DNA of 64,000 nucleotides from Apostichopus japonicus (taxonomy: Eukaryota > Echinodermata > Holothuroidea > Aspidochirotida > Stichopodidae). The notes below the pieces were generated by a model, which saw only the letters and a list, made by a program, of their open reading frames with translations, ran no database searches and had not been told where the DNA came from. Below, one piece after another: positions 254 through 45,090 of the stretch; position 1 is the first letter of the stretch; every line of letters begins with the position of its first letter. The position numbers and the translations under genes are program-made. The DNA lies in the NCBI RefSeq assembly GCF_037975245.1, contig NC_092568.1:2666001-2730000 (forward strand), in the 5' to 3' direction.

Positions 254-3200
254 TTACCTAGAATATCCTGCAGTGACAGCTGATCTTTTAAAGTCTGTAA
301 TGAATTCCTCCATGAATGTTCTGCAAATGAGTTCAAATGTTACAGTCAAGATATGAGTGCTTAGCTACCCAAAAATTACCACATCCCATTTTTTAACAAA
401 GATAGAAGAGTTTTGGGTTTCATTTTAAAGTATCCCAATTCGAGTCTTTTGTTTAATATTTCGATACACAAAGAGAGGAATGAGGGAGTTGGGATGGAGC
501 TTTTTTTTTAATATTATCTATTTTAAAATGCAGGAAGCTCAACAGTATCTACCTTCCCCTCAGCTTAATACCTCCATCCCCTCTCCCCCTTCTTCCTACA
601 TCCACCCCCTGTCCCCCTTCTCCCTACATTACCAACAAGCCTTGTACACATGTTTGTTCTTGTGTTGCTATTTCTGTCAGCTAAGACTGATGTTCTGGCT
701 GTCATCACCCTCTAAACACCTCCGCCACCCTCACATCCAATGAGAAACAAAATTCACTTTTTCAGGAGGACCATACAGGTAGTCTCTCCACACATCATCA
801 CTGCCCCCCCCTGGTGCCCCCCGGTTCCCCTGCCTTTGGTTCCCCACCTCTCCACTACTCTCCATCACCATTAAAACAATTAACTCACTTTGCTCTTACT
901 GCCATTTCATTGCCAGTCCATCTAGGACTGTACGGGCAGTCTCTCCTCACATCATCACCGTACCCCCCCCACTGGTGCCTCCCCCTCACCATTAAAACAA
1001 TTCACTCACTTTGCTCTTACTGCCATTTCATTGCCAGTCCATCTAGGACTGTACGGCAGTCTCTCCTCACATCATCACCGTTCCCCACCCCCCCCTGGTG
1101 CCTCCCCCTCACCATTAAAACAATTAACTCATTTTGCTCTTACTGCCATTTCATTGCCAGTCCATCTAGGACTGAACAGGCAGTCTCTCCTCACATCATC
1201 ACCGTCCCCCACCCCCCCTGGTGCCTCCCCCTCACCATTAAAACAATTGACTCACTTTGCTCTTACTGCCATTTCATTGCCAGTCCATCTAGGACTATAC
1301 GGGTAGTCTCTCCTCACATCATCACCGTCCCCCCCCCCCACTGGTGCCTCCCCCTCACCATTAAAACAATTCACTCACTTTGCTCTTACTGCCATTTCAT
1401 TGCCAGTCCATCTAGGACTGTACGGGTAGTCTTTCACCGTTTGGTTGAACGGTCGGCCAGTCGAGGTGGTATGGTACACAGACTGAAACACAAACTCTGG
1501 CTGATCTTTAGGAAAGTACGGTGGAATATGAACTGCAGAAGAGAAAAGAACGTCCAATTGTACCATTAATTGGTAGTTTCTCATGCATTATGAATTATGT
1601 ACCAAACAACTTGTGAAATTATCACAAGTATTTGTAGAACTAAAACACTTAAATCTCAAGGCAGCGTGTCGTATTTGCAAAGCGAATACAATCAAAATAT
1701 ACTTAAAAGAATATGTCAACTCGAGCGCATATAGCAAGATTCGAACTAAGATGCTATAAAATGCCCGTGGATTGGGTGAATAGAGACCTTGTCTTACTTC
1801 TGTAATGAAATGTAACCAACTGCTTTAAAGATAGAAGGGAAAATAAGTATCCATTTACCAATGTGATCATGTTGCTAGCCTTACTTGTATCACTTATTGA
1901 AAATACTCCCATTCGTTGAAATCATGAAGAACCACTAGATACTTGCATCTAAAGAATTTGTTAAAATGTTCATATTGACATACAAAACTTTGATCGAACT
2001 GGACGCTTCTGTCCTCAACATGAGATGAGATGCTACAAAAGCAGAAATTTAGCAGAGGCTGGGTGGACTGAGGAAGGGGGATGGGGAGGGAAATAGATTA
2101 TGTAAAGTGCCCCCCCCCCTGCTCCCCCTGATCTCTTCATTGCAACTGGATAGACAAAGTTATAAATACTTACCATGTAACAGAAAATGAAAATCTTGGT
2201 TTTCAAACAGAAATGATATCTGCTCGAAGCTCTCTGCATCGTACTCCAAGACAGACCTGATGAGAGATAATGTAAACAGAAGAAAAATAAATTAACTAGA
2301 AGACTGTTATGTTGCTGAATTCCTCTAAAAGTAAGTGAAAAGTTTGCAATATGATCTACATGATCAACACTAATATATTTACAAATTTACTGGTTTATTG
2401 TACACAATTGTTACTTTCAACATGAGATGTGCACATAGCTTTGCTACAATCACAGTCAGAAAGAAATTTGAAAGATATGAAATTAGTTGATCAACTCTGT
2501 TACATGACTAGAGATTGCAAAAAATCTTCAATTACCATGACCATGTAAATTTATTCCAAAAAGCATCATTTAGTTTGAAGTGGGTATGCTCAGCTGCTGT
2601 TAATAAAAATATATATATTCTTGGGTCAAGGTTTTTCCCCGACTTTCGGAATCTTCCTATGTTTCATGAAAAGAATACAAAGCTGCTTTTTTGTCCTCAG
2701 TATGGGATGTATAAACCTTTTTTACTTTTTAAGCCTTCAGTTTTGCATTAATTATTACATTTTCATTACTTAACACTCCCCCAGATTGATTGTTAGCAAG
2801 TCACATACTTCATTACCATAAAAATCATGAGAAATCATAATTATGTCATATCATTCCAAAACCACCAGTGCTTGTGCACAAATCTTGACTTATTTGTTGT
2901 TAGTTGAAGTGTTGAAGTTAGTTGAAGTTAGTTGAAGTGAATGTGATATACTCACCTGCCATAATGACTGAGAAAAGCTGCAATGTACTCTTGTCGTTTC
3001 TTAAATCCCTTAGCAACCAGGTCAATCTTGAGGTCAAGGAAAGTATGAAAACATCTTTGAACTGAACCAGATAATCTAATCTTCCATGTCTTGATATAGC
3101 TTTACCACTATTATCTTATCAGTCAGTTTAGCAAAGAAATAACTTCACATGTTCTGAAGTCATACATTAAGACCAAATGTATGACTTCAGAACACAAAGA

Positions 3201-6200
3201 TATTTCTTGAAACTCTCTGTTTGGTATGAATGAATACCCAGCAATCACCACCACTCCTAAAGGCTTGGTGTTTACATGGTAGCTTGAATTTTAGTAGTAT
3301 AATAAAGTCATGAGATGTGGAAACAAAATTAATACCAATTCATATTTTAAATTATGTTTGACTTAAAAAATTGATAACGCAGATCTGACATATATGCCTA
3401 CCAAGGTAGATTAATCAAGTTCTGGCATGGTGTAAATGTTTCTAATTTACAATCTATGTTGACCTTTATACTACGATATTCATATAATTTGCAAACATTT
3501 GATTCAGATATATGCAATGTGCAGAAGTCCACATGAGTGTAGGCTGACTTACCATATTTTCTAAAAGTTCACAGACTTGTGGTACGTAGGTGAATAAACA
3601 TCCATCGTTAGGGAAGACAGGAATCCTAAGACTGTTGGACCCACCGAGGGCGCTGACAGTAGAGAAAGACACCAAATAATTTATCACATCCCAAAGAAAA
3701 CTCCTATTGTTTGCATTTATATACAGATCCAAACAACCAAAGGTATATATGCCATTGTAAGCTATTCAATGTGATTCATTTAGTCGGCAAACCTTAAAAG
3801 CAGCGTGTGAGTTGCAACAAGAGATAATTTTTGATCCACTGGGTTAATCCCATTACAATTAAGCACTTTGTAATTAATGAAACTGTCCAATGTAATTTCC
3901 AAATGAACACCCAAAATTTTGATTTTTAAAAAGTGGATTTCAGTGTTGGTTTGAACTTGCAGCGTGATCAAATACTAGGAAAACAATAGTTTATTCAAAC
4001 AGGTTGTGTCAGGATTAACAAAGAATCGTTAATAAATTACTAATAAGCAAGCTTTCAGGGATAAAGGCTTTGTGACATCATTATTTTATCAACTACCATC
4101 ACATTATACAGTACTTGATACACATCCTAAAATTGCTACAAGCTGGGAATGAAATGCAAACCACTGCTTAAATTATCCTTTGAAAGCTGTGTGTGTTAAA
4201 CATGATTCTGGTCACTGCTTGATTCTTATAAGCCTTTCAACCCTTGATGTAAAGGTTTGAGAGATCTTGCAACATCCAGAGGTATGCAAGGGGAGGGGGG
4301 TAAGGAGTGGATTGCTAGAGTTGAAGAGTGAGTACTGAAAGGATGAAGCTTATATCACCCGATGGTGGGTGCCACCTTTTGGAAATACATAACGTAACTT
4401 ACACCATTGTACTTTGCTAATCATAGGAGGCAGGAGGAATTGGCAGAGGAAGGTGAGGAGAGGAGAAGGGGAGACAGTAGGGCAGATGGGTAGCCTAATC
4501 TATCAAAAACTTGAATATTTACTTTTTCAAAAGCAAGAGAATAAGTAAAGAGCAGTGGCGGCGCCAAGGGGGGGCTTGGGGGGGCTTTAGCCCCCCACTG
4601 AAGTAGTCAGCCCCCCATTAGCCCCCCAACTGAAATAGGCACAAAAAAAAAACCTCATTGAAACAATATAGCCTACCCAAATTTTGTCAGCCATAACGCA
4701 GTGCTACAATGGTCAATGGAAATTTTGATGAATTTTGTTCTCATACGGCAATGTCGTGTGCGTTTAACAAACAGCGTGTATACAGACTAAAACAGGAGTT
4801 GTGTCAGAGAGCGCGATATAATAATTGAGCAAAGGAATTGGATCTTTCACAGCAGGTAATATTTTAGTGATACGAAAACTGTGAATTGGTTTCTTCCATT
4901 CTAATTTGACTAAAGTTACTCACAAAAAAATGCAGATTTTTGGAGAAATTTTCAGGTGACAAAAGCCTCGCTAAATGCCACCATTTTGCATGTAGGCCTT
5001 TCCAGGATTGGGAAAAATTTCAAAAGGGGAGGGGGCACCCCCTCCCCTTATACCCCTCCCCCAGGACGGCGATCACTCAATCTTGTAAGCCACCCAAAAA
5101 ATTGGCTCAGCCCCCCCTTAGCCTCCCCAACTAAAAATTCCTGGCGCCGCCACTGGTAAAGAGCATATTACTTGGAAATGGATTTTCATATGATTGAATG
5201 TAAACAAGAGAACTCTCAAAACAATAATACTACAAGAAATACTAAATCCGGAAGCAAAAACTATTCAAATGCAAACAGTTCATACTGACTTCATCAAATA
5301 AACTTGGTCACAATGTGTCTTAGTCAAAGTCAAATAAAACAAAAACAAAATAATCCAAACAATAGCTTTATTGTGTTTTATAGCTTTTAATCTGTTGTAT
5401 TAAAACAAAAGAGTTTTCTCTTACTATTCTACACTAGGTGACAGGTAAAGCTGTGGATACATCTTCTCGCCTGGATGTTGATACGTAACCAAGAGGATAG
5501 CCATATCTTCTCCAGGACTTTCAAGCTAGACAGAAGACATATAAATAAAGCAATGACAATATCAGCTTGTTTCAAATTCAACCTAAACTTACTGATTCTC
5601 TCCAAACGTTCAATAAATGCTGGTCTCAAATCAGGAAATTGAGGTTAAAAACATTCTTTTCTTGTCGTGGCACTTCTTTCCATTCTAAATTAATTGAACG
5701 TCATATGCCCATTTGAGATTCTATATGAAAATAGTAAAATGGTGGCTGATATGTTAGCCGACAGATTTTGGAGGACCAATATGTCACTAGTTTCATCCCT
5801 TCAATGGGAATGTGATATATATTTGTACAAATAATATGAACATTCATCAGGCTAGGCCTCTATCATGGCTGTACAAATGACCAATGTGAGTGAATATAGG
5901 GTGGCGATGTTGGTGGAAGGCCTTGTCCCAAGACTGAGGGAGACAGGGATCAAGACTGTTCATAATGTTGTAAAGTGGACCAAAAGATGCAAACATTGGT
6001 TTGGGGGGAGGGGGGGGAGGTAGGGATTGGATTAATATTTGGAGTTTTGAAATCATAACTCAGCAGCTATCTGTCAATGTACAGGCTCCTATTGACCTAA
6101 GTGCCATTGTTGTTAGGTAGGCATCAGCTTCCCTACAAAGCTCTTGGAGATTAGAGTATGGTGCATATGGGTACATGACCTACAGTATGTTAACATAAAT

Positions 6201-9200
6201 AACATGTTTTGGATGAAACAGACCTAGAGATAACTAACTTTGGTAAATTGGAATGATTTTGAGAAAAACAATAGTTGACAGTTGTGTTCTAAATAATGAA
6301 TACTCAATAAGCTGATTTGAGTCAGGGTTATTCCCCAGGAGATAAACGATGGAAATTAAAACAAATCAGAGGTGATGCTGGTGGTGGTGGTGGTGGTGGT
6401 GGTGGTGGTGGTGGAAGAGGAGGTTAGATGGGTATCTCAAAAGAACACAAATTTTTGCCCACCATTTAATGTCAATTTATGTTGAATTCTTTAGTCTTTC
6501 ACTTACCTTTGTAAAATATTCAGGTATTTCAGAAAAGTTCACAGGTAGCCTTATCAAGAATTTTACCACCGTTTCCCACGTTTGCTGTTGTAAAAGATAT
6601 ATAAAAAAATTCATTGGACTAAAATTTTGAGATATTCATAGTGCTGACAGGCATGAAAACGGTTATGAACAGTGGTTTAGGTCTATCATAGCGCTGAGAG
6701 GTACCAAATTGTACACAGGTTAATAAATAAGCTTTACTCAGTACTGCATAGGAGACGTATAAGGAAGGTATAGCATACATTAGTATGAGAAAATTCTTAA
6801 AATATCTAAACATGGTACATCCATCCCTCCTTGCATCTATTTTAATTGCTTGTGATATTCTAAGTTAAAGGGAAAAGGTAATCAATATTTAATATTCAAT
6901 TTTTTTATATTTTTTTTTATATATATATATATTTTATTTATTTCTATCTTTGTTTGTCAATTAAACAAATACTGTACAAATTGTACAACACTGCCACCAA
7001 CCATTGGGTTCTTGATTTATTACTTACAGTAGCTCTTGTTAACCTGAAGAATGCCCCATAGACAACCTCCAAAGAATCTTTATCTTGAAGATGAGTCTAC
7101 TGAACGCTAGAAGAAACTGTTCACCTACAAGCTATGTATAAGAATCTCACAACAAACTGAACTTTTGTGATAAAAGGTAAATGTTAACAACACAAGAACT
7201 ATTTACATTTGTTTCCATCCAAAAGCAAGACAAAAAGATACCATTTATCTTTAAGTTTTGAGGTAAATAAATATGATTAGCATTGTGAATAAAGTAATTA
7301 ACATCTTTGGCAAGGGAACTTACCATCATCCTTCTATGGGGCATGTGTACCTCTACTTCAGTGAATTTCCTTGTATTCATGAGTGAGGCATATTCAAACT
7401 GAAGCCTGGTGTGTTGACTGATCTCCTCGATTTGGAAGGCTTTGTAAAACTCGATTAACTCACAGATGACAACCTTGAGACTTAAAGGATCGTCTGGATC
7501 CCACTTGACTAATGACTGAGGAAATCGGAAGAGAAGATGACTGTTAAGTTATAAAGAAGCTAAAATAGGCAATTTCATAACTTTATGGAAATTTCAAACA
7601 TTTCCAAAACTTAAACAGTTGGTGTCATTCAAATGTAAAATAAATCTAACATCTTGGTTAAGCAGACCAAAAAATTTACTTTTGATAAAAAAAAAATAAA
7701 AAAAAAATATCATCAATTAGCCAACTTTGCAAACGAAATATTAGGACAGAGGTTATCACTTGATTTGGCCAAAGTTGGCATTCATTTGTAGTGTTTATAC
7801 TGAATGCATCAGTATTAAACTGGAGCGAGAAACAAAGTATCTGGTGGGATGTAAATTATATATTTTTGGGTTTATATATAAGTTTAGCTATGAGACACAG
7901 AGCTCTAAATACTTTGACACATTAACATTTTGTTTTAAAAAAGCTACAAAAGAGTCTTCTTGCTTTTGTCCTTACTCTTATTTCCTCTAGAGGTGGTACA
8001 AAGTCATTGTCAGCCGGTCCAAAGATGAAATCTGGGGGATCCTCGGGATACATTGAATTGAAAAGAACCTGCCCTGAAAATTGGAAATGAACAAAAATGT
8101 GAACAATGTTTCTTTTGAATAACAAACGTGAGGAATGAGTTTTTATATAGTACGTGAGTTGTCAAAATTCATGTGATGGAATATCCTGAAGCATGACTTC
8201 ACTCAACTTCACTCTTATATCTGTATTTTGCTGCACTAGCAGAAAGGGATCCAAATTCAATCCTCGACCAATTTTATATTTTCTGCTGTATAGTTGTGAA
8301 ACAGTAAGGCAACTTGAATAAACATGCTGTCGATAACTATTAACCAGAATAATTGCTTCCCTGTATATGAGAGATATTACTGTTCATTAAATTCTCTCTC
8401 TCCTTCTAATGATTATTGTTGAATGAATTATAACCTGGACTTTGCAAGTAAATCACAATGATCTGATAATATTAAACTAAATTATGAAATACTTACATGA
8501 TAATGTATGAGTAGCAAAGGGGATGTTGACTTGAATCCTATCATACAACTTCTTGCCATCAATAGAATTGCAGCTGCAAGGGGAAAAAATTAGTTTACGA
8601 GATGAAAATGGGGAATTGTTACTAACTCATTTCCATATCTACATTCCAATGATGCATTCCATTCCATGGTACAGGGCCCATGTCACATATAGACTGATAT
8701 GTATGTCATTCATATAATACAAGAACTAATTTTTAATGCACATACCATAATCTCATATAAAGGCAGAAGCAATCATTTATACACCCTCTTCTTGCCCAAT
8801 CCGGACTCGGAACAATACCACTATATAATACTCGAAACCCATGGGAATTGTTCGTCTCATTATTACTTTCTTATTGTCCTAATACTTCTCTAAAATGAAC
8901 CCAGAGATATACAGTACTGTACCCACCCATCAATAACCTCATCTCTCGCATACTAACCTTTCATCATCCATTTCATCTATTCATGTTCACCAGACACTAC
9001 ATATTTACTTTTGTTTCTAGTCACATATGGTTAGTCAGCTCTTTGCTATAGGATTGGAAACTGTTTTATGTTTGGGGAATTTCAGAGCTGTCATATCTGC
9101 CTGGGTGTGAGGAATGTGTTTTTATTCTTTTTCCAGTAAGTTCACTATATTCAAATTCTTGTTAAATTTCAGTTACTATATTATGTTAGTGGCTAAAGTT

Positions 9201-9758: not shown

Positions 9759-11356
9759 ACACCGGTGTGAAGTTAGTTACTTATTCCGCGTTCCTCATTC
9801 GACATTCACGAATAAGTAACTGCAGTACACATGATATACATTTATGAAAAGCCGAATGCTTCCGTACGAGAATATCAAGAATTTTTAGTCGAAAAAGTAC
9901 ATTTTTCCAAAGTTAATTTGGGTTTAACAATGGGTCATATGAAACTTTCAAGACAGTGTAGAAAATTACCACAATGCGTCTTCCCGGTCCAAACAGTGCT
10001 TGACCAATTCGCATGACCACTTCACCATCACTTATTAAATATATGTAACGGAGGCACGAAAATTAGGCCCTAATAAATCCTGCACGCCTTGGACCACCTA
10101 ACCAATGTTTAACATGAACTATATCGACAATGTAGAAGAGTACCATAATACGTCTTGCCCGGTCCAAAGAGTACTTGACCAATTCAAATGACCACTACAT
10201 CATAACTTCTTAAATTAGTGAAACGGGACTACGAGAAAGCTTTGGGCCCTTATCCATCCAGCACGATTTGGATCACCAAACCGATGGGTCATATGAACTC
10301 TAAAGACAATGTAGAAGAAAAACATAATGGGTCTTGCCCGGTCCAAAGAGTGCTTGACCATTTCAAATCACCACTACATCATCATGCACTTCTTAACTTC
10401 AATACAAAGGAACCACGAAAAAGCTTTGGCCCCTAATCCATCCAGCACGCCTTGGATCACCAAACCGATGGGTAACATGAACTCCAAGGAAAATGTAGAA
10501 CAGCACCATAATGCGCCTTACCCGGTCCAAAGGGTTCTCGACCAATTCAATTGACAGCTACACCGTCACTTCTTAAACGAACTACAAAGGGACCACGAAA
10601 AAGCTTTGGACCCTAATCCATCCAGCACCCCTTGGATCACCAAACCGATGGGAATCTTGAACTCGAAGGACATCGCAGAAGAGTACCATAATGCGTCTTG
10701 CCCGGTCCAAATTGTGCAATTCAAATGACCACTACAACATCACTTATAACATGAATGTTACGGGACCACGAAAAAAATTATGGTACTGTACTACATTGTC
10801 ATTAGAGTTCAAAAGACCCATTAGTAAGGTGGTCCAAGGCGTGCTGCATGGTTGGGGATCAAAGCTTTTTTGTGGTCCCGTTACATTCATTTAAGAAGTG
10901 ATGATTTAATTAGTGGTCATTTGAATTGGTCAAGCACTCTTTGGACCGGGCAAGACGCGTTATATGGTACTCTTTTGAATTGACATTAGAGTTGATATGA
11001 CCCATTGGTTGGGGGTCCAAGGCGTGCTGGTTTTTATTAGGGCCTAAAAGGGTTTTTTTCAGGTCCCGTTACATGCATTTAAGAAGTGACGATGTAGTAG
11101 TCATTTGAATTGGTCAAGCACACTTTGGACCGGGCAAAACGCATTGTGAGAGTTTTCTATATCATATGACCCATAGATAAACCCTAAAATTTGGCTTTTC
11201 CACGACCATGATCTTGAACATCTTGTAAGAAAGCATTCGTCTTGCCATTGGTGTTACGTCGATACCATTGTCGAATAAGTAATTTATAGGTAGCAGTTAC
11301 TCATTCGCGAATGTCGAACGAGGAACGCGGAATAAGTAACTAACTTCACACCGGTG
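9759..11356. mobile_element. Fold-back element: long terminal inverted repeats enclosing oppositely oriented ~180-bp tandem repeats
   Basis: The left end (CACCGGTGTGAAGTTAGTTAC, from 9759) is inverted at the right end (GTAACTAACTTCACACCGGTG, to about 11355). Homology between the arms continues inward for roughly 230 bp. Inside, a unit marked by CCCGGTCCAAA recurs in direct orientation at about 9985, 10160, 10339, 10523 and 10703 (spacing 175-184 bp), then in inverted orientation at about 10943 and 11127. The orientation flips near 10760-10800. GAAATACACA occurs at 9752-9761 and 11366-11375, a candidate target-site duplication, although it does not abut both inverted repeats symmetrically. There is no transposase frame. 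The architecture resembles Foldback-type DNA elements; the superfamily is undetermined. The BABAM2 start codon is only 49 bp from the left end. Confidence 0.85.
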
Positions 11357-18595: not shown

Positions 18596-28126
<9,531 letters not shown>

Positions 28127-31147: not shown

Positions 31148-33085
31148 CAGTGGCGGAGATTTCTTGTCAGAAGTGGGGGGGTTGCAGGCCATTGATGAAA
31201 TAAAAAGTCATAACTGCTGGCTCACTATATAAGTGGAGCGCCACCATAAGTTGGCGCGAAGTGCACAAGAATTTTTTGGCAAATATTGCCTCCCAGATTG
31301 CAGTAAATGGCACTGCCCAGGCCTTGAAAAGCTGGATTTAACCAGGGGTGTATGCAGGATTTTCTAACCCGGGGGGCGCGTATTACTATCTAAGCGGAGC
31401 GCCACCATTGGTTGGCGCGCAGCGTACAAGAAAATTTCTGGTTTTGGTACCCCCAGATCACCGGAAATGGCACTTGAAATGGCTTGAAACTGACCAACCA
31501 TATGTACACTTTTGCCTGACAACCAAGTTTTTTCCAAATACTTTTTTCTCATCTATAACCTTTTTGAAGATTGTCACCAGTCACACATCATGTTCGACTT
31601 CATCACATATCCTGTGGATCATTGCTTTTGTAGGTGATTCTTCATCACGGCCCACAATATCCGTCAGCCCCACTGTTCAGAATTTGAAAATTCACAATTC
31701 TCGTGAATAAATTCACTTCAAAACATACCCATAATGTTGCACAAAATATCATCTATGGACAACCGATATAGAAAAACCTCCTTCAAACCCTAACAGACGG
31801 GTCAAAATTGCACGAGTATGATGAAGTATGATGAAGAATGTTGGTTAGGGAATTTTCGAAAATTCAGACGCTACTAAAAAATTTCGTTGAAGGAAATAAA
31901 AAATATACCAGATATTTCCGAAACCGAACACTACACACATCGACAGTTTTGACCATGGGCGCAGATCAGTCTTGGATAATGGTGGGGACGCGTGTCTGTT
32001 CTATGACACTATCTAAGCGGAGCGCGACCATGGGTTCGCGCGTAGCGTACGATTTTTTGGGGCAAATATACCTCCCAGATCGCCGGAAATAACACTTCCC
32101 AGACCTAATGATGCTCCTAAACCTCCTTAAGTTTTAGATCTCATTGCTTAGAAATTTAGTTTGGAGAAATACATGGGCGTCTGCAGAAAGAAAATCAGGG
32201 GGCAAATAATCCAAGTAGACTTTTGTATATACGATGGGTCTGGGGTCCTCTCCCAGAAAACAAATATAGACTGCCGCAAATGCGATTTCCGTCCTATATT
32301 TAACAACTGTGGATAAAATACAATAAAATGAGAACTGCTGCATGTCATTTGCACAATGCTGGATCAAACTGCGCCAAAGTTCCATACAGGGGAACTTGAA
32401 ATGCAAAGACAAATTGGTGGGGACACGGTATATCATGTCCCCACTACTGAAAAAGTTTGTGGGGACGCGTCCCGCTGTCCTCACCAGGATCTGCGCCCAT
32501 GGTTTGGAGGCTGTTTATCGTGGAACGCCATTTTCATGCTTACTGATATGATGTGATATCTGCTGTTTGTTTACAAATTCGAATAATTTTGTCACTGTTC
32601 CTCTTCCTCTTCCCGTTTTCTTGCCGTATTTTCTACTCCATCCTTTGGTCCTTTTCTCTCTTTCTTCTTTTTCTTTTCCTTCCTTCACCTCGTTGAAGTT
32701 GGCAAGTGTATACAGTTCCAAAGCTATTCAACAGCAACAAAACGTTATTTTGTGTATTTCTGTTGTGGGGTGAAGTTAGCGCTATGAGCTACAAGGTCCA
32801 ATGCGCAAGGTGGGGGAAAGGGGCTAGAAATAATGTGTCGGTCAATTCTAACTCGGTTTTCGGTCGTTAATTGTTGATGTAGCCTACCAGGTAAAAGGTT
32901 GAAATGACTTTAACAATTTCAAATTTAATAATTTGATTTATTATGCCATTTGGAGCACATAACATAGGCTATAACAGAACATTACTGGCAAAAACTAGGG
33001 GGGGTTGATTGTGTGGGCCAACCCCCCCTCTTCAAAAAGTGGGGGGGTTAAAACCCCCCCAACCCCCCCTGTTTCTCCGCCACTG
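31148..33085. mobile_element. Nested non-autonomous hAT-type element, copy 1 (1938 bp)
   Basis: The element begins CAGTGGCGGAGA and ends with the inverted TCTCCGCCACTG. GTGATTCT at 31140-31147 and 33086-33093 is a perfect 8-bp target-site duplication. A motif of the form CTATCTAAGCGGAGCGCC, then a short loop and GGCGCG, recurs three times inside (near 31226, 31388 and 32008), each time shortly after a hAT-like terminus. The element therefore appears built from several related elements inserted into one another. No transposase frame was recognised. It is near identical to the copy at 33801-35704. Confidence 0.92.
31953..32501. mobile_element. Inner hAT-type element nested in copy 1
   Basis: Termini CATGGGCGCAGATC and GATCTGCGCCCATG are exact inverted repeats. 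The flanks GTTTTGAC (31945-31952) and GTTTGGAG (32502-32509) are a degraded 8-bp duplication (6 of 8). A further hAT-like left end (CATGGGCGTCTGCAGA, near 32172) lies inside it. Confidence 0.8.
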
Positions 33086-33800: not shown

Positions 33801-35704
33801 CAGTGGCGGAGATTTCTTGTCAGAAGTGGGGGGGTTGCAGGCCATTGATGAAATAAAAAGTCATAACTGCTGGCTCACTATCTAAGTGGAGCGCCACCAT
33901 AAGTTGGCGCGAAGTGCACAAGAATTTTTTGGCAAATATTGCCTCCCAGATTGCAGTAAATGGCACTGCCCAGGCCTTGAAAAGCTGCATTTAACCAGGG
34001 GCGTATGCAGGATTTTCTAACCCGGGGGCGCGTATTACTATCTAAGCGGAGCGCCACCATTGGTTGGCGCGCAGCGTACAAGCAAATTTCTGGTTTTGGT
34101 ACCCCCAGATCACCGGAAATGGCACTTCTCGGGCTTGAAACTGACCAACCATATGTACAATTTTGCCTGAGAACCAAGTTTTTTCCAAATACTTTTTTCT
34201 CATCTAACCTTTTTGAAGATTGTCACCAGTCACATCACGTTCGACTTCATCACATATCCTGTGGATCATTGCTTTTGTAGGTGATTCTTCATCGCGGCCC
34301 ACAATATCCGTCATCCCCACTGTTCAGAATTTGAAAATTCACAATTCTCGTGAATAAATTCACTTCAAAACATACCCATAATGTTGCACAAAATATCATC
34401 TATGGACAACCGATATAGAAAAACCTCCTTCAAACCCTAACAGACGGGTCAAAATTGCACGAGTATGATGAAGTATGATGAAGAATGTTGGTTAGGGAAT
34501 TTTCGAAAATTCAGACGGCTACTAAAAAATTTCGTTGAAGGAAATAAAAATATACCAGATATTTCCGAAACCGAACAATACACACATCGACAGTTTTGAG
34601 CATGGGCGCAGATCAGTCTTGGATAATGGTGGGGACGCGTGTCTGTTCTATGACACTATCTAAGCGGAGCGCGACCATGGGTTCGCGCGTAGCGTGGGAT
34701 TTTTTTTGGGCAAATATACCTCCCAGATCGCCAGAAATAACACTTCCCAGACCTAATGATGCTCCTAAACCTCCTTAAGTTTTAGATCTCATGGCTTAGA
34801 AATTTAGTTTGGAGAAATACATGGGCGTCTGCAGAAAGAAAATCAGGGACAAATAATCCAAGTAGACTTATGTATATACGATGGGTCTGGGGTCCTCTCC
34901 CAGAAAACAAATATAGACTGCCGTAAATGCGATTTCCGTCCTATATTTAACAACTGTGGATAAAATACAATAAAATGAGAACTGCTGCATGTCATTTGCA
35001 CAATGCTGGATCAAACTGCGCCAAAGTTCAATACAGGGGAACTTGAAATGCAGCTATTGGTCAAGACAAATTGGTGGGGCCACGGTATATCATGTCCCCA
35101 CTACTGAAAAAGTTGGTGGGGACGCGTCCCGCTGTCCTCACCAGGATCTGCGCCCATGGTTTGGAGGCTGTTTATCGTGGAACGTTTGCTTTACAAATTC
35201 GAATAATTTTGTCACTGTTCCTCTTTCTCTTCCCGTTTTCTTGCCGTATTTTCTACTCCATCCTTTTCTCCTTTTCTCTCTTTCTTCTTTTTCTTTTCCT
35301 TCCTTCACCTCGTTGAAGTTGGCAAGTGTATACAGTTTCAAAGCTATTCAACAGCAACAAAACGTTATTTTGTGTATGTCTGTTGTGGGTGAAGTTAGCG
35401 CTATGAGCTACAAGTTCCAATGCGAAGGTGGGGGAAAGGGGCTAGAAATAATGTGTGGGTCAATTCTAACTCGGTTTTCGGTCGTTAATTGCTGATGTAG
35501 CCTACCAGGTAAATAGTTGAAATGACTTTAACAATTTCAAATTAATATAATTTGATTTATTATGCCATTTGGAGCACATAACATAGGCTATAACAGAACA
35601 TTACTGGCAAAAACTAGGGGGGGTTGATTGTGTGGGCCAACCCCCCCTCTTCAAAAAGTGGGGGGGTTAAAACCCCCCCAACCCCCCCTGTTTCTCCGCC
35701 ACTG
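33801..35704. mobile_element. Nested non-autonomous hAT-type element, copy 2 (1904 bp)
   Basis: It has the same termini and interior as the copy at 31148-33085, in the same orientation, differing by scattered substitutions and small indels (for example a longer insertion near 35051 and a deletion near 35187). TTTGTTTG at 33793-33800 and 35705-35712 is a perfect 8-bp duplication, different from that of copy 1. This shows an independent insertion rather than a segmental duplication. No transposase frame is present. Confidence 0.92.
34601..35158. mobile_element. Inner hAT-type element nested in copy 2
   Basis: Termini are CATGGGCGCAGATC and its inverse. Flanks GTTTTGAG (34593-34600) and GTTTGGAG (35159-35166) match at 7 of 8 positions. 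The nesting is shared with copy 1, so it predates their separation. Confidence 0.8.
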
Positions 35705-44245: not shown

Positions 44246-45090
44246 AAGTTTCTCGGTACTATTATCTTAACTGGAAAAATCATATTTCATATATCTGTAG
44301 TAAAATTGCCGGTGCAAATGGAATTATATATAGATTAAAACATGTTCTTCCGAAAGATACATTATTGACTTCATATAATACTCTAATACTTCCACACCTG
44401 AATTATAATTTACTTGCTTGGGGAGGTGCAAATAAATCACTGTTGCATAAATTATGTAAACTGCAAAACCGTGTAGTTGGTGACATTTGTATTGCCCCGT
44501 ATATTGCTCACTTGGGTCCTCTTTTTAAGAGTCTGAACGTCTTAACTATTTTTGATTTATTTGATTATCAGCTTGGTATTTTTATGTTTAAGTTTAATAA
44601 TGGAAATCTTCCTCTTATTTACAACTCATATTTTCATTATAGATATAATCTGCATCATTACAACACTAGATCGATGTATTCTCTAAACATTCCATATTCA
44701 AGAACTAGACTTAGACAGTCCCAGATTCGTTCAAGTGGTGTTACTCTCTGGAATTCACTCTCATCTAATCTCACTGAATTGAATATTACTTTATATACTT
44801 TTAAAAATAGGTTGAGAAAAAAATTGATGTTGACTTCATATTACATGTAATTATATGCATATTTAGACCAATCTTAAATGTTGCTGTTATTCTTTTGTAA
44901 TTAGCACATTGCTAATTATTTTTTTAATTTCATTTCCTTTCTTTATTGTTAGGGGTCAGACTCGAAAAGCTTTGCTTATTCTGACTCCTCTACCCATCAT
45001 ATGTATATATAAACTGATTATTGCATATAATTTATTATATTTAAGTATATTAATTTAATAATTATCATGTTATAAAATATAAATTAATGA
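44246..45090 (+). mobile_element. 5'-truncated, frameshifted non-LTR retrotransposon (LINE)
   Basis: Translation from 44246 gives KFLGTII. After a frame change it continues NWKNHISYICSKIAGANG, LPHLNYNLLAWGG, LCKLQNRVV, HHYNTRS and LWNSLSSNL, and stops at 44850. This is the C-terminal part of a reverse-transcriptase ORF2 (thumb region onward) of the CR1/L2/Crack type. The change of frame near 44262 makes it a dead copy. Its 3' UTR (44851-45090) includes the hairpin-like AAAGCTTTGCTTATTCTGA and ends in AT-rich sequence. Confidence 0.85.

Follow-up and report, generated by a model that had tools for sequence, protein, structure and literature searches.

A putative mirage-type minisatellite carrying an exon end and its splice donor in BABAM2 of the sea cucumber Apostichopus japonicus

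The last intron of BABAM2 in the sea cucumber Apostichopus japonicus carries, downstream of the authentic exon end, four extra copies of a unit which on the minus strand comprises 53 nt from the end of the penultimate coding exon, the splice donor and some 70 nt of intron sequence. Judged by its sequence, this array is one of the mirage kind, a kind already known from amphioxus. We regard it as likely, with good confidence, that this mirage-type minisatellite is largely a passive product of turnover and that mainly its first donor is spliced. A second, separate array was found across an exon end of a kinase locus in the same genome, which suggests that echinoderms make exon-boundary arrays too. 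In this sense, what has been a lancelet curiosity would extend to echinoderms, one genome holding two independent examples, and such rows of near-identical donors may offer natural substrates for testing how the spliceosome chooses the first donor.

The last exons of BABAM2

In the window (the whole 64-kb stretch of DNA that was analysed), nine BABAM2 exon blocks were placed by eye from 8073 to 254, with splice signals read for most and not for all of them. The BABAM2 identity proposed by a first-pass annotation of this DNA holds, as the spliced 72-residue C-terminus read from the window matches PDB BABAM2 chains (E=8e-21), and the exon from which the array derives is the penultimate coding one (Table 1). 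On its own, this C-terminus missed the Pfam cut-off for BRE (16 vs 25.8 bits); the open frames 7150-7548 (E=2.9e-15) and 3469-3765 (E=5.3e-9), two further exons, lie above it. A PDB search with a 23-residue piece of the first exon block gave no match. Across the part examined, from 8073 downstream, the gene looks intact. With regard to a possible protection by U1 against premature polyadenylation, the last intron contains no AATAAA and has two ATTAAA, at 512 and 457. Neither Rfam, at its gathering scores, nor a tRNA scan returned anything in the window. A foldback-like element at 9760-11356, composed of ~184-bp subrepeats in direct and inverted orientation (73-80%), probably lies within a BABAM2 intron according to the partial exon map.

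Table 1. Coordinates of the last BABAM2 exons, of the array units and of the kinase exon-end array (window positions unless otherwise indicated)
Feature	Position	Strand	Basis or remark
Penultimate BABAM2 coding exon	1379..1532	-	154 nt, phase-2 donor from 1378; translation and PDB match of the spliced C-terminus
Last BABAM2 coding exon	254..320	-	21 residues, then stop TAA
Last BABAM2 intron, array inside	321..1378	-	GTGAGT at 1378, CAG at 323-321, read from sequence
Unit c0: authentic exon end, donor, first intron stretch	1309..1431	-	Alignment of units
Extra copy c1, GTGAGT donor intact after 1256	1186..1308	-	Alignment of units
Extra copy c2, ATGAGT in place of the donor after 1133	1062..1185	-	Alignment of units
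Extra copy c3, donor intact after 1010, one nt missing from the exonic part	942..1061	-	Alignment of units
Extra copy c4, donor intact after 889	785..941	-	Alignment of units
Decayed 18-nt exonic fragment, without donor	767..784	-	In match 767-811 vs 1291-1335
Kinase exon-end array (L038)	locus C23:17718052-17721420, array L038:1854-2354		Second exon-boundary minisatellite

Structure and uniqueness of the array

TRF reports the array at 858-1432 with a period of 123, 4.7 copies, 94% matches and a score of 1006, whereas 30 shuffled versions of the first 12 kb (first-order Markov) reached at most 58. The exonic part of the unit occupies 1431-1379 in the authentic exon, and its copies finish at 1379 (authentic), 1256, 1133, 1010 and 889, with donors spaced by 123, 123, 123 and 121 bp. 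AAA|GTGAGT stands at four of the five donor positions, and the copy at 1133, with ATGAGT, reads AAAATGAGT. The minus strand of the window contains AAAGTGAGT at four places, every one within the array, and the plus strand of the window lacks this sequence. The first-pass annotation had described four extra tandem copies of exon end, donor and intron start, with about 50 coding bases, a period of 121-124 bp and three of the four extra donors intact; TRF and the unit alignment confirm the copies, the coding part measures 53 nt at the spacing given above, and c2 is indeed the only copy that lost its donor. It had also called the intron start C-rich, which is correct only on the plus strand, since on the sense strand the intron start of the units is G-rich.

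The array closes with the decayed exon fragment at 784-767, which is taken in by a match of 767-811 to 1291-1335 (89%, E=7e-9) and is also the fifth match (89%) in a search of the own genome with the unit. A continuation of this fragment into a degenerate donor is unsupported, 74 of 1000 shuffles scoring as high. The longer and more divergent intron stretch that follows the donor within c4 would be native intron.

When the whole genome (671.6 Mb in 35 contigs) was searched with the unit, at least five matches were obtained, every one in the BABAM2 array; a dispersed repeat is thus an unsupported reading, all the unit matches listed being within the array. The window is C8:2666001-2730000 of this genome, and contig C35 (16,099 bp) is a mitochondrial genome, its genes being identified by eye. 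The frames of C35 are open under table 9, AAA occupies COX1 positions at which animals have Asn (FSTNHKDIG and DRNINTTF, for instance), and nad1 and nad2 share a strand with cox1-3, nad4, nad5 and cob, as in echinoids and holothuroids and unlike sea stars; this code speaks against an amphioxus origin. Minisatellites are dense in this region: 14 arrays with a period of at least 30 and a TRF score of at least 120 were counted in 144 kb (window plus 80 kb flanks), rows of several periods for one array being taken once, and loci being excluded if they overlapped the window or came from chromosome ends, from unplaced contigs or from the mitochondrial contig. With arrays so dense, some would be expected to cross exon edges by chance. 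In the flanks (loci L006-L013), ten arrays were inspected by eye for open frames, and none was clearly another boundary array. The window also contains a direct duplication of ~1.9 kb (31148-33085 and 33801-35704, 95% identity).

Repetitive stretches and homopolymers are difficult to assemble, and on this ground the BABAM2 array could be taken as an assembly artefact. We hold this to be extremely improbable, given that different copies carry different variants and that the assembly, in the available part of its description, is apparently a PacBio HiFi one with a mean read length of 14.7 kb, far above the array length (PMC10344927).

Variation among the copies and origin of the array

Among c0-c3, variable columns amount to 5/53 in the exonic and 7/71 in the intronic part (Fisher p=1.0), and this comparison gives no sign of constraint on the copies. 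With c4 added, the intronic part is the more variable (48/104 vs 5/53, p=2e-6), an excess that is mostly one long insertion or retained native stretch in c4. The exonic part of c1 departs from the exon by a single synonymous change, and those of c2, c3 and c4, three of the four extra copies, have missense or frameshift changes, among them Tyr>Cys in all three and a 1-nt deletion in c3. Variants are shared in a mosaic fashion: c2, c3 and c4 go together in column 5; in column 60 the pairs are c0/c3 and c2/c4; and in column 122 c0 pairs with c3, the other three copies forming a second group. Such mosaics may reflect turnover by exchange or conversion, and not selection on the copies; concerted evolution with diverged edge units may have taken place, five full units with mosaic variants and a decayed far edge being few to judge it by.

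We propose that the minisatellite, or 'mirage', arose by tandem duplication of ~123 bp across the exon-intron boundary and then expanded. Unequal exchange or conversion would later have reshuffled its extra copies, with decay at the far edge. Splicing would mainly use the first donor, because only this one closes a 154-nt exon that has an acceptor of its own and a unique 5' portion. If a later donor were rarely used, the in-frame TGA, at least ~120 nt upstream of the last junction, would make the product a likely NMD target. Given this structure, the presumed splicing at the first donor and the likely NMD of late products, the array may be for the most part neutral, at a small cost to splicing.

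Predicted consequences of the later donors

The TGA directly after AVRAK, pointed out in the first-pass annotation, is present and arises when the phase-2 donor is translated in frame (AA|G TGA). Such a stop in a late product is not special, since any phase-2 GTGAGT or GTAAGT donor that is read through gives NNG TGA or NNG TAA. The annotation had claimed that splicing at downstream copies would include this stop and remove the last 22 residues; the stop is indeed predicted for the three intact later donors, and the loss should be corrected to 21 residues (51 vs 72 from the same exon start). For the donors after 1256, 1010 and 889, respectively, the in-frame stop would stand about 120, 366 and 487 nt before the last junction, and the exon needed would have 277, 523 and 644 nt vs 154 nt for the authentic one. 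By the common 50-55 nt rule for NMD, the predicted later-donor transcripts are likely NMD targets.

Alternatively, the array may act as a length-variable set of alternative donors, yielding a BABAM2 shortened by 21 residues or lowering BABAM2 via NMD, for which the stop distances just given would be suitable. Three extra donors are intact, and the predicted pairing with the U1 5' end is -6.5, -5.7, -2.6, -6.5 and -5.7 kcal/mol from the first to the last donor position; as the four intact donors pair almost equally well, strength gives the first one little or no advantage. A G-rich stretch of G-quadruplex type (pattern only) follows four of the five donor positions, the one after 1010 being the exception, and is a further point in favour of alternative use. 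A minisatellite with multiple splice donors was reportedly described in human IFI6 (6-16) by Turri et al. in 1995. The tandem units of IFI6 resemble those of BABAM2 in that they place splice donors at the end of an exon, and two downstream units are reported as used donors in the available part of the source (PMC4526556); in BABAM2, by contrast, such use is putative. Against alternative donors, c0-c3 lack signs of constraint, exons of 277-644 nt would be required, and splicing in the amphioxus mirages is reported as undisturbed in the portions available of those papers. We consider alternative donor use unlikely, and with it the length-variable source of truncated BABAM2 that the first-pass annotation had offered as one option. 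That annotation names neither precedent, the amphioxus one leaning against such a function and the IFI6 one towards it.

Another possibility is that single copies are spliced in as mini-exons of 33 or 39 nt, which would lengthen the protein in frame by a second copy of 11 or 13 residues. CCTAG, a weak acceptor-like site, lies upstream of the donor position in all four extra copies. In c1, c3 and c4, the copies covered by this frame test (c2, without donor, being left out), the 33-nt segment from CCTAG to the donor has phase 2-2, and the reading frame continues through it to the normal stop; in c1 this also holds for a 39-nt segment. However, the first intron would have only ~90 nt, and the pyrimidine tract is weak (10-11/15) and placed behind the G-rich stretch, a measure that separates poorly because eight genuine BABAM2 acceptors range from 10 to 14/15. 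We find such mini-exons very improbable, and return to a mirage spliced mainly at its first donor.

Comparison with known systems

Amphioxus mirages have been described in Adh3, in the globins BflGb6 and BflGb9, in TnC and in PGBD5, and that of BflGb9 is a 157-bp duplicate of an exon's 3' boundary. In the available text of the two papers, splicing is reported as undisturbed and copy number as variable for some mirages, and the authors mention that the copies could serve as cryptic splice sites (PMC3087553, PMC3902484). As far as that text goes, the amphioxus mirages and the BABAM2 array have in common the minisatellite-like tandem copies of an exon-intron boundary and the splice signals kept in many, not all, copies. 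They differ in gene and phylum, and transcripts and haplotype copy numbers were examined in amphioxus, whereas the BABAM2 array comes from one assembly. Two properties underlie its assignment to the mirages, namely that its tandem units span an exon-intron boundary and that the splice signal is kept in three of the four extra donors; to these we added locality, a property of our own choice and not taken from a paper, and all the unit matches listed are local.

Tandem duplication across an intron-exon boundary has also been described, in the available part of one paper, as giving rise to a new intron (PMC4974935); there, the acceptor side is copied and an intron gained, whereas in BABAM2 the donor side is copied. 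Among the papers listed from the open-licence literature, no echinoderm boundary array was found in titles and abstract beginnings.

A second exon-boundary array in a kinase locus

The Apostichopus japonicus genome gave 134 kinase matches, of which the best-scoring 30 loci were scanned with TRF. One of the 30 (L038) has an array across the edge of its kinase match, match edges being the scope of the scan, and this fraction is not a rate because the loci are best-scoring and biased to long exons. The exon contains a myosin light chain kinase-like stretch (E=1.1e-43 to a myosin light chain kinase family member 4 chain), and its end, TTGCTATACCCT|GTAAGT, recurs at about 31 bp. GTAAGT is present 15 times in total, which makes 14 extra donors, and ATAAGT and GTAAGG each stand once. 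The donor is of phase 2, with TAA in frame within it, and in a genome search with the unit all the matches listed (at least five) lie at this one place. No next exon was recognised in ~1 kb beyond the array. In a similar locus (L039) there is a matching exon end with a single donor.

Both arrays lie in phase-2 introns, which suggests, from two cases only, a countable rule on array survival. One may speculate that sea cucumbers have many exon-boundary minisatellites, that these persist because phase-2 donors bring a stop of their own (NN|GTRAGT = NNG TRA), a wrong choice being removed by NMD, and that some arrays are copy-number-tunable donor sets or sources of in-frame mini-exons; we give this broader proposal a low probability.

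For the passive reading of the BABAM2 array we count the local unit, the equal exonic and intronic variation in c0-c3, the altered exonic copies and the mosaic variants, together with the dense minisatellites nearby, the second exon-boundary array and the undisturbed splicing reported in amphioxus. Counted against it are the intact donors (three of the four extra ones in BABAM2 and the 14 extra ones in the kinase array), the near-equal U1 pairing and the intronic excess when c4 is included. Also on this side, when 5' splice sites are duplicated the intron-proximal one is often favoured.

Other open frames in the window

On the minus strand, the open frame 43743-44141 matches CCSAP (E=1e-7) and 16037-16447 matches the Arf family (E=1.5e-6). 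The open frame 44248-44850, which is without a Pfam match, looks by eye like the C-terminal region of a reverse transcriptase of the LINE type. Ras-family matches lie on the plus strand at about 21951-22082 and 25675-25842.
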